This document shows positions 37,983 to 44,385 of a stretch of 64,000 bases of DNA, one piece after another. This stretch comes from Rheinheimera pacifica. Its GTDB lineage: Bacteria; Pseudomonadota; Gammaproteobacteria; Enterobacterales; Alteromonadaceae. The notes below the pieces were generated by a model. It was not told where the DNA came from. It searched no databases and saw only the letters and a list, made by a program, of their open reading frames with translations. A program made the translations under genes and the position numbers. Location of the stretch: NCBI RefSeq assembly GCF_900108485.1, contig NZ_FNXF01000004.1:124001-188000 (forward strand). The letters run 5' to 3'. Numbering within the stretch: position 1 is the first letter of the stretch; every line of letters starts with the position of its first letter.

Positions 37983-38137
37983 AGAGGCAAAACAGATCCC
38001 AGGCAGAGTACTGATGCTACTATAGCAACTTTTTAACAATACAGAACAGCGGAAGATCAGATTTGCTGGCTTGTTTTTGGGCAGAATAATAGAAATGGTT
38101 ACGAAGTGGACGATGTTTGTATGATTTTATCAGAGAG

Positions 38138-38235
38138 TGGTGGATTGTACTGGGGCGGCATGCAATGCTTCGGAGCAGTGGCAACCGTGTCTTAATAAAG
38201 AGCGGGCGGTGCTTTGCTGTGGTTTTATCAGGAAG
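38138..38235 (-). repeat. tRNA-Val 3'-end repeat, unit 1 (98 bp)
   Basis: The most distal unit in the direction of transcription. It ends (at 38138) with the tRNA-Val acceptor/CCA sequence and carries a 14-base insertion compared with units 2 and 3. Like the others, it contains a copy of the AGCACCGCCC segment of the tRNA. It does not fold as a full tRNA. Confidence 0.8.
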
Positions 38236-38319
38236 TGGTGGATTGTACTGGTTTGGAGCAGTGGCAACCGTGTCTTAATAAAGAGAGGGCGGTGCTTTGC
38301 TATGGTTTTTATCAGGAAG
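38236..38319 (-). repeat. tRNA-Val 3'-end repeat, unit 2 (84 bp)
   Basis: A tandem copy, almost identical to unit 3. It reads, on the minus strand, a spacer, AGCACCGCCCTCTCTT, a changed anticodon region, then a T-arm-like segment and the exact acceptor/CCA end (CAGTACAATCCACCA). The 5' acceptor strand and D-arm of a tRNA are missing. Confidence 0.85.
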
Positions 38320-38403
38320 TGGTGGATTGTACTGGTTCGGAGCAGTGGCAACCGTGTCTTAATAAAGAGAGGGCGGTGCTTTGCTATGGTTTGTATCAGG
38401 AAG
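38320..38403 (-). repeat. tRNA-Val 3'-end repeat, unit 3 (84 bp)
   Basis: Directly follows the CCA of the second tRNA-Val gene. It has the same layout as unit 2, with a T-loop-like TCCGAAC in place of TTCGAAC. The exact 84-base spacing and near identity of units 2 and 3 point to recent tandem duplication. Confidence 0.85.
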
Positions 38404-38479
38404 TGGTGGATTGTACTGGGTTCGAACCAGTGACCCCCGCCTTGTAAGGGCGGTGCTCTCCCAGCTGAGCTAACAATCC
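38404..38479 (-). tRNA. tRNA-Val(UAC), second copy
   Basis: A 76-nt cloverleaf including an encoded CCA. The acceptor stem GGATTGT/ACAATCC, D-arm GCTC/GAGC, anticodon stem CCGCC/GGCGG with loop CTTACAA (anticodon TAC), variable loop GGGTC and T-arm ACTGG/CCAGT all pair. It is identical to the first copy. It is flanked downstream by three degenerate repeats. Confidence 0.97.
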
Positions 38480-38515
38480 ATGGGATATCAAATTGTCAGC
38501 AAACACTTTTAAGAT

Positions 38516-38597
38516 TGGTGGATTGTACTGGGTTTTAATCAGTGTCCACCGTCTCGTCGTGAAGAGCGGGCGGTGCTTTTCATGATAAGACATCAAG
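38516..38597 (-). repeat. tRNA-Val 3'-end repeat, unit 4 (82 bp, degenerate)
   Basis: Follows the CCA of the first tRNA-Val gene directly, just as unit 3 follows the second. It keeps AGCACCGCCC and the exact CCCAGTACAATCCACCA end, but its T-loop is degenerate (ATTAAAA region) and its middle differs from units 1-3. It is an older copy. Confidence 0.75.
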
Positions 38598-38673
38598 TGG
38601 TGGATTGTACTGGGTTCGAACCAGTGACCCCCGCCTTGTAAGGGCGGTGCTCTCCCAGCTGAGCTAACAATCC
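38598..38673 (-). tRNA. tRNA-Val(UAC), first copy
   Basis: Identical 76-nt gene with anticodon TAC and encoded CCA. It is the promoter-proximal gene, about 19 bases downstream of a consensus -10 box. E. coli also has a tRNA-Val(UAC) operon (valUXY-lysV) divergent from gltX, so this position is conserved. Confidence 0.97.
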
Positions 38674-38692
38674 ACGCTGTTTGATGGCGCTC

Positions 38693-38720
38693 ATTATAGG
38701 GAGCATGAAAAAGCTGTCAA
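38693..38720 (-). promoter_or_regulatory. tRNA-Val operon promoter
   Basis: A perfect TTGACA (-35, 38715-38720), 16-base spacer, perfect TATAAT (-10, 38693-38698) and a GC-rich discriminator (GAGCGCC). The GC-rich discriminator is the usual mark of stable-RNA promoters under stringent control. Confidence 0.92.
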
Positions 38721-44158: not shown

Positions 44159-44196
44159 GCTATTGAGTATGCCTGAATGGCGGCAGAATAAAAGAG

Positions 44197-44378
44197 GTTC
44201 TCCAAATTGCCGTGTCTGGTGTTAGCCCTTGAACCATAGGTTCAAGGCGGGAGTCAGATGGCTGCCTCAGGCTTCCCGGTACGGGCCGGGCTTGCACACT
44301 GGCAGCGCAGAAGAATCCCTAGGTAAAAACAATTATCGGCTCAGGGACATCCACCTGATCACCAACAATCCAGAGAAC
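44197..44378 (-). ncRNA. ssrS: 6S RNA
   Basis: Binds the sigma70 RNA polymerase holoenzyme and regulates it in stationary phase. On the minus strand the closing stem (GTTCTCTGG with TTTGGAGAAC), the conserved CCCTGAGCCGATA segment, the open central bubble region, and the hairpin CCTTGAACCTATGGTTCAAGG match enterobacterial 6S RNA in order and spacing. About 182 nt. The gene sits between fau and ygfB, as in E. coli. The ends are estimated from the closing stem. Confidence 0.92.
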
Positions 44379-44385
44379 AGGCTTG

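Follow-up and report, generated by a model that had tools for sequence, protein, structure and literature searches.

Why should a bacterial tRNA operon carry, behind each of its tRNA genes, further copies of the 3' end of that tRNA? This question is raised by a tRNA-Val(UAC) operon of Rheinheimera pacifica, located in the 64,000-nt stretch of DNA analysed here (hereafter the window). Comparisons of its sequence indicate that the array behind the tRNA genes is real and conserved, and that it is a new version of a known but poorly understood kind of repeat, the tRNA-linked repeat (TLR). The explanation that we favour, with middling confidence, is that the units are repeats of the TLR kind which derive from duplicated tRNA-Val(UAC) genes and are under selection, with the tail as a 3'-processing signal, the internal units as folded spacers, and the terminal units as a Rho-type termination zone.

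Layout of the tRNA-Val(UAC) operon

The operon is flanked by gltX on one side and by a gene for a response-regulator/TPR protein on the other, and the array lies on the minus strand, which a preliminary description of this DNA had left unstated. Read along that strand, a promoter-like site is followed by the first tRNA-Val, an 82-nt unit, a 36-nt spacer, the second tRNA-Val, and units of 84, 84, and 98 nt (Table 1); the two tRNA genes are identical and lie within an 80-nt stretch that is the same in both. The preliminary description had reported these four units, each with the exact acceptor/CCA end of the tRNA, and its account is confirmed: all four share the last 16 nt of tRNA-Val and retain AGCACCGCCC, and, as read from the sequence, all are without the native 5' acceptor strand and D-arm. 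Followed by eye, the unbroken match to the tRNA 3' end extends over 19 nt in the internal unit and over 16, 16, and 17 nt in the terminal units. The tRNA 3' end, CCAGTACAATCCACCA, occurs six times, i.e., at two tRNA ends and four unit ends, and simple arithmetic places four exact 16-nt matches in 600 bases beyond chance expectation. Tandem Repeats Finder detected one array in this region (38169-38432, period 84, 3.1 copies). The single internal unit, with a folding z of -4.27 and 95.8 bits against model R1 (the unit itself being among R1's 18 sequences), is unlike the three-unit terminal block in structure and composition. Open reading frames are present on both strands of the array (the longest of 98 aa antisense and 73 aa sense), but unit lengths such as 73, 74, 82, and 98 nt break the frame, and a coding function was therefore rejected without a coding test.

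Table 1. Features of the tRNA-Val(UAC) operon, in transcription order, and the 6S RNA gene of the window
Feature	Position in window	Strand	Remarks
Promoter-like TTGACA-16-TATAAT	38693..38720	-	12/12 consensus positions; upstream of first tRNA-Val; under the scan's looser rule, 1 site here vs. a mean of 1.4 in shuffles
tRNA-Val(UAC), first copy	38598..38673	-	ARAGORN; Rfam RF00005, 68.5 bits
Internal unit, class A, 82 nt	38516..38597	-	Predicted fold: ACCGCCC-loop hairpin, then acceptor/T-like minihelix ending in tRNA 3' end
tRNA-Val(UAC), second copy, identical to first	38404..38479	-	ARAGORN
Terminal unit 1, class B, 84 nt	38320..38403	-	C30 G11
Terminal unit 2, class B, 84 nt	38236..38319	-	C29 G10
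Terminal unit 3, class B, 98 nt	38138..38235	-	C36 G16; extra GCATTGCATGC before tail
C-rich trailer, opening like another unit (CTCTCTGATAAAATCAT)	38079..38137	-	
6S RNA gene	44195..44379	-	Rfam RF00013, 122.1 bits

Distribution, origin, and conservation of the units

The preliminary description had raised absence of the repeats from all sister strains as a sign of an assembly artefact or a transient duplication, and such an absence is not borne out. A survey of the window and 80 loci fetched by gltX (the nearest five gltX proteins, with 97-99% identity, are from four Rheinheimera and one gammaproteobacterial bin) yielded 70 loci with a CCA-ending, same-sense tRNA-Val within 1500 nt upstream of gltX, and units defined by the tail criterion are present in 35 of these 70 (31 of 41 in L045-L086), each unit-bearing locus having 1-10 terminal or 1-4 internal units. 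Because the same kind of array occurs in other assemblies, an assembly artefact was ruled out. No unit was detected in the Idiomarina-group loci with tRNA-Val (L094, L103, L105, L110, L112, L115, and L116), in three Shewanella loci with such a tRNA-Val (L114, L120, and L123), or in two Alkalimonas loci (L077 and L089); one unit is present in an Alkalimonas bin (L084). Among 15 further loci of the same family, 13 have tRNA-Val and 10 of the 13 have units, although this proportion is no measure of prevalence since the loci were picked from R1 matches. These units come from eight genera besides that of the window, and their tails read ACCATCC, ATCGTCC, or AGCGTCC, in each case as in the tRNA of the same locus. 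Altogether 103 stretches were collected and four were removed (too long, containing N, or a chance match in a gene), leaving 99 units, 88 of them distinct; at contig edges an internal unit may be mislabelled as terminal (L069 for one).

The exact double-tail pattern, used as a family-wide marker, was found in 4 of 147 genomes, all of the window's own genus, and at least one match (in G017) is a tRNA pair. A degenerate pattern searched class-wide was found in 2 of 185 genomes, one of these being again a tRNA pair, and it cannot show absence because it fixes letters that vary among tRNA-Val genes. Matches to R1 in 88 of 147 genomes are not a unit count, since R1 matches tRNA-Val itself with up to 37.1 bits; above that score, 12 matches in 8 genomes were seen among the matches listed.

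Several loci show individual arrangements. In Rheinheimera lutimaris (L051), a unit stands behind five of the seven tRNA-Val genes, and two of the seven copies carry GAC instead of UAC. Rheinheimera sp. YQF-1 (L067) has ten tandem 73-nt terminal units, six of which are identical, suggesting a recent tandem expansion. In Salinimonas, Aestuariibacter, Glaciecola, and Alteromonas (L101, L111, L095, and L102), tRNA-Val remnants contain a small hairpin-like insert between the T-loop and the 3' strand of the T-stem, which is another route of altering a copy while its 3' end stays.

With regard to origin, some units are near-full-length tRNA-Val sequences in which mainly the anticodon arm is altered (at position 567 in L086, 720 in L081, and 612 in L198), others have lost the 5' half, and most of the units shown have, judged by eye, a CTCTTTAC-like segment in the former place of the anticodon arm. 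Because of these near-full-length intermediates, an origin by tRNA duplication is indicated, and the view that the units derive from tRNA-Val itself, which is new here, is supported by the sequences compared. Duplication had been among the possibilities of the preliminary description; the intermediates uphold it, whereas the conservation between genera described below is at odds with a duplication that is merely transient.

In both unit classes, every one of the 15 final nt has an identity of 0.92-1.00 to the tRNA of the same locus, the value being 0.72-0.93 at positions 16-19 and 0.05-0.84 beyond, in a measure for which units were picked by their tail. As a less biased approach, 46 loci were searched with a profile built from clade-1 units after removal of their last 19 nt, although the units used for training have tails. 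It gave 69 hits outside tRNAs in 25 loci (one more was skipped at an end), of which 63 are followed by the tail with at most 2 mismatches in 16 (52 exactly); the six misses comprise two tRNAs (one masked and one with an altered end) and four worn last units. Since the two tRNAs of the window are identical, the window alone cannot reveal which tRNA copy a tail resembles. Five operons whose tRNAs carry two different tails can do so, and there 14 of 14 units have a tail closer to that of the directly upstream tRNA (tandem units not being independent). These tail comparisons show that the tail of a unit follows the tRNA copy directly upstream, which is new for these units; a tail equal to the end of the immediately upstream tRNA is given as a hallmark of TLRs in PMC8144298.

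An alternative is that the units have no function and are decaying tandem tRNA-Val duplicates whose tails are kept alike by slippage and short gene conversion, a reading that we consider rather unlikely. It is favoured by the near-full-length pseudo-tRNAs (L086, L081, and L198), by the four worn last units without a tail, by the 14 of 14 tails, which local conversion would also produce, and by a worn tRNA-Asp copy with its own copied terminator elsewhere in the genome (L013; see below). What speaks against it in the first place is the conservation of the unit body. Compared with five Rheinheimera relatives (L046, L047, L048, L051, and L054), the internal unit without its tail has an identity of 0.98-1.00, which says little since the gltX-side intergenic DNA also reaches 0.79-0.97 in those five. 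Compared with five Arsukibacterium loci, it still has 0.77-0.86, whereas the spacer after the internal unit has 0.49-0.59 (shuffled 0.44-0.53), the gltX-side intergenic DNA 0.58-0.60 (shuffled 0.49-0.50), and gltX third positions 0.50-0.55; values for other loci are 0.83 (L055), 0.75 (L061), 0.69 (L065), and 0.70 (L081). tRNA sequence also accounts for about 15 of the 63 positions of the core (AGCACCGCCC and the 5' strand of the T-stem). The hairpin strands are not tRNA sequence, and conversion from the tRNA could therefore keep the shared positions but not the hairpin. The alignments therefore show, as a new result at the sequence level, conservation of the unit core between genera that have diverged in the spacer and at silent sites.

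Tail copies were also sought behind other tRNAs, in 63 fetched tRNA loci from four genomes (the window's own and three others in part), a set that lies outside the window's Val locus. For at least 7 of 134 tRNAs, the last 16 nt recur downstream outside any tRNA, versus 0 of 134 for which they recur upstream in the same 63 loci. Those counted are two tRNA-Val (at one locus), a tRNA-Pro(UGG) in each of two genomes (83 and 81 nt), an initiator-type and another tRNA-Met, and tRNA-Gly(CCC). Val is thus the main site among the tRNAs sampled, and Pro the second. Behind tRNA-Pro(UGG), the window's own genome has two tandem 83-nt units (L012) and another genus a single 81-nt unit (L129); each of these units ends in the tRNA-Pro tail, is changed in the anticodon arm, and is predicted to form a T-arm stem. 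The corresponding Pro double-tail pattern was found in 2 of 59 genomes. In the own genome, too, a worn, near-full-length tRNA-Asp copy stands behind the second tRNA-Asp, with the intrinsic terminator of tRNA-Asp copied along behind it (L013), which is a tRNA-plus-terminator duplication in decay, and tRNA-Gly(CCC) has an exact 3'-end copy 335 nt downstream (L016) that looks like an attachment-site duplication by a small mobile element.

The kept 19 nt correspond to a part of tRNA genes that often serves as attB. It might accordingly be asked if the units are footprints or decoys stemming from integrative elements whose attachment site is the 3' end of the tRNA; the tRNA-Gly(CCC) copy would provide an example. 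We regard this as very improbable: the two genes flanking the operon are gltX and the response-regulator/TPR protein gene, the units contain altered tRNA-Val, and the linkage to gltX is kept across species.

Folded internal and C-rich terminal units

The two classes of units differ consistently, which also argues against an absence of function. Between 27 distinct internal and 61 distinct terminal units, median C/G is 1.33 versus 2.25 (p 8e-11) and minimum free energy (MFE) per nt is -0.298 versus -0.127 (p 2e-12), related units not being independent in either comparison. At loci with both classes, terminal units have the higher C/G in 15 of 15 cases and the weaker fold in 14 of 15 (the exception being L061). 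The median folding z of internal units is -3.86. These comparisons show a split that depends on position, new here, between predicted structured internal units and C-rich, G-poor, little-folded terminal units.

All 18 aligned internal units have one predicted plan, in which a hairpin capped by a C-rich loop precedes an acceptor/T-like minihelix, and this constancy would likewise be unexpected for decaying duplicates. The alignment comprises 18 of the 27 internal units, and the nine left out are eight of other clades and one near-identical sequence. Among eight internal or contig-edge units of the Rheinheimera tangshanensis-type clade, six follow the same plan with other letters, the L071 unit does not, and the unit at 260 in L066 does so partly. 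In a pairing test on the alignment, 87.2% of cells are paired and covariation is 0.129 versus 0.090 in shuffles, and neither value was reached by any of 500 shuffles or by any slide; five pairs have double changes, a number reached by 18 of 500 shuffles, and further pair types are not in excess (13 vs. 13.4 in shuffles). Since the consensus made by RNAalifold itself keeps just 13 pairs, with a covariation term of -0.21, we grade the covariation support for the predicted fold as moderate. A re-created 5' acceptor strand was rejected as a proven pair, as it ranks in the best 5% versus dinucleotide shuffles in 1 of 27 internal, 7 of 61 terminal, and 0 of 12 Escherichia coli units. Taken together with the T-stem strand, which is inherited from the tRNA in units of the window's kind, it does so in 12 of 27, 14 of 61, and 5 of 12, respectively. 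Thus, of the features of an RNase P substrate, an acceptor/T-like stem and a 3' CCA are predicted in 18 of 18 internal units, while acceptor pairing alone exceeds shuffles in the one of 27 mentioned.

A conserved fold and hairpin loop in internal units would also suit a trans-acting small RNA or sponge, i.e., released RNAs about 80 nt long with other RNAs or proteins as binding partners, e.g., via the C-rich ACCGCCC loop, and precedents exist in RrA/B/F and 3'ETS-leuZ (PMC8144298, PMC7815308). We judge this alternative unlikely, as terminal copy number ranges from 1 to 10 among the loci having such units and the core differs between clades.

The terminal units are C-rich, G-poor, and little structured, which is the composition of Rho-dependent terminators. 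In the window, C exceeds G by 58 in the 266-nt terminal block, an excess reached by 0.056% of same-size segments (its own included) over both strands of the 64 kb, and a search of the minus strand of the C-rich trailer for an intrinsic terminator found none. Across the survey, in which 10 of 70 loci were skipped (short or containing N), no terminator-like site was found in any of 30 loci with terminal units, at distances of up to 250 nt from the last tRNA or up to 200 nt from the last unit. Among loci without terminal units, such a site was found in 5 of 30; the other 25 of 30 lack one as well, some of them having worn unit remnants. The idea that units cure a missing terminator is therefore weak, and units appear not to be needed for termination.

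Returning to the favoured explanation, selected repeats of the TLR kind, the following course may be proposed. The operon would be transcribed from the promoter at 38720-38693, and the copied 3' ends would be read as tRNA ends by the 3'-maturation machinery (RNase E or exonucleases, and perhaps RNase P on the internal minihelix). Excision between the two tRNAs might then release the internal unit as a folded spacer RNA with a length of about 82 nt, delimited by the CCA of the upstream tRNA and by the CCA at its own end. With little G and little structure, the terminal units would serve as a zone where Rho is loaded and the operon ends, and trimming would have defined 3' ends in their tails. 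The likeness among the tails could also be the work of local gene conversion or slippage. For comparison, all seven valine tRNAs of E. coli need RNase P for separation (PMC9433436), and the copied 5S end in RrB was suggested to be recognised by RNase E (PMC8144298).

A wider idea, which we advance tentatively and think rather doubtful at present, is that TLRs are general, recurrently born RNA modules tagged with a tRNA end: the kept 3' end of a decaying duplicate would let the maturation machinery excise or trim it, and selection would reshape the body by position. If this is true, units inside operons would become folded spacer RNAs, and those at the ends of operons Rho-loading trailers; both fates would be seen together in the valine operons of this family, and unit tails would co-evolve with the tRNA. 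The units would represent a second lineage of TLRs, which spans many species, has lineage-specific tails as well as intermediates, and is clearly split into internal and terminal units; this lineage makes the old TLR puzzle testable by comparative genomics and by Term-seq in a laboratory strain that can be cultivated.

Comparison with known tRNA-linked repeats

TLRs were first described in 1978 and were without known function before a study devoted to three of them in rRNA operons (PMC8144298), which counts 22 TLRs at ten loci in E. coli K-12, with one to five per locus, in which the 3'-terminal 18-19 bp repeat the end of the tRNA or rRNA located upstream. TLRs of tRNA operons remain unexplained in that source, which cites Egan and Landy 1978 and Rudd 1999 for the tyrT/tyrV repeats and RttR. 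Among the matches listed in our literature search, the term tRNA-linked repeat occurred only in this paper, and none dealt with repeats in Alteromonadales. The preliminary description had likened the array to rtT of tyrT, and thus named just one member of this wider, already described class. The analogy holds in anatomy, as the tyrV trailer has three 178-nt units with the exact last 18 nt of tRNA-Tyr, but it does not extend to sequence: no window unit matched Rfam RtT at E up to 10 (the Rfam matches of the window being the two tRNAs and the 6S RNA), and blastn of the four units against 12 of the 22 E. coli TLRs gave 7-base words only, with E above 5. The window units are therefore TLRs in kind rather than demonstrated homologues.

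In placement they agree with TLRs, being located in a tRNA operon downstream of the gene whose end is copied. The typical identity of 18-19 bp is matched by the 19 nt of one of the four window units, the others having 16, 16, and 17, and across species the match drops after position 19. We scanned 12 regions of E. coli K-12 and found 12 tail copies, three behind tyrV, three in argQZYV, five in the lysT operon, and one behind lysV, and a thirteenth is present between tyrT and tyrV; one region (L208) was scanned separately from the main scan. In the printed MFE folds, judged by eye, the tail lies in a stem in 10 of 12 copies, while the shuffle test was mixed (5 of 12). The E. coli TLRs resemble the window units in standing behind a tRNA gene, singly or in tandem, in having the 3' end of the tRNA, and in occurring both between tRNAs and after the last one. 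Terminal copies also have a higher C/G than internal ones (1.00-1.24 vs. 0.73-1.04, six each), a difference of the same direction but far weaker. On the other hand, the window units are on Val(UAC), whereas the valU operon of E. coli, a neighbour of gltX, yielded a single TLR, located behind lysV; E. coli TLRs measure 98-178 nt in the regions scanned, versus 69-128 nt for tRNA-Val units; and tRNA-Val units have a core derived from tRNA-Val, far more C-rich terminal units, and up to 10 terminal units in a row.

Two further systems from E. coli may be compared. The 3'ETS-leuZ sponge RNA is likewise derived from a tRNA operon trailer, but no copied tRNA 3' end was found in its locus (L210). RrA, RrB, and RrF, located behind 5S rRNA, differ in belonging to an rRNA operon, in having two intrinsic terminators, of which none were found here, and in binding CsrA and Hfq (PMC8144298), but they resemble the units described here in being a trailer RNA with a copied 3' end of the upstream stable RNA and with a structure conserved between genera.
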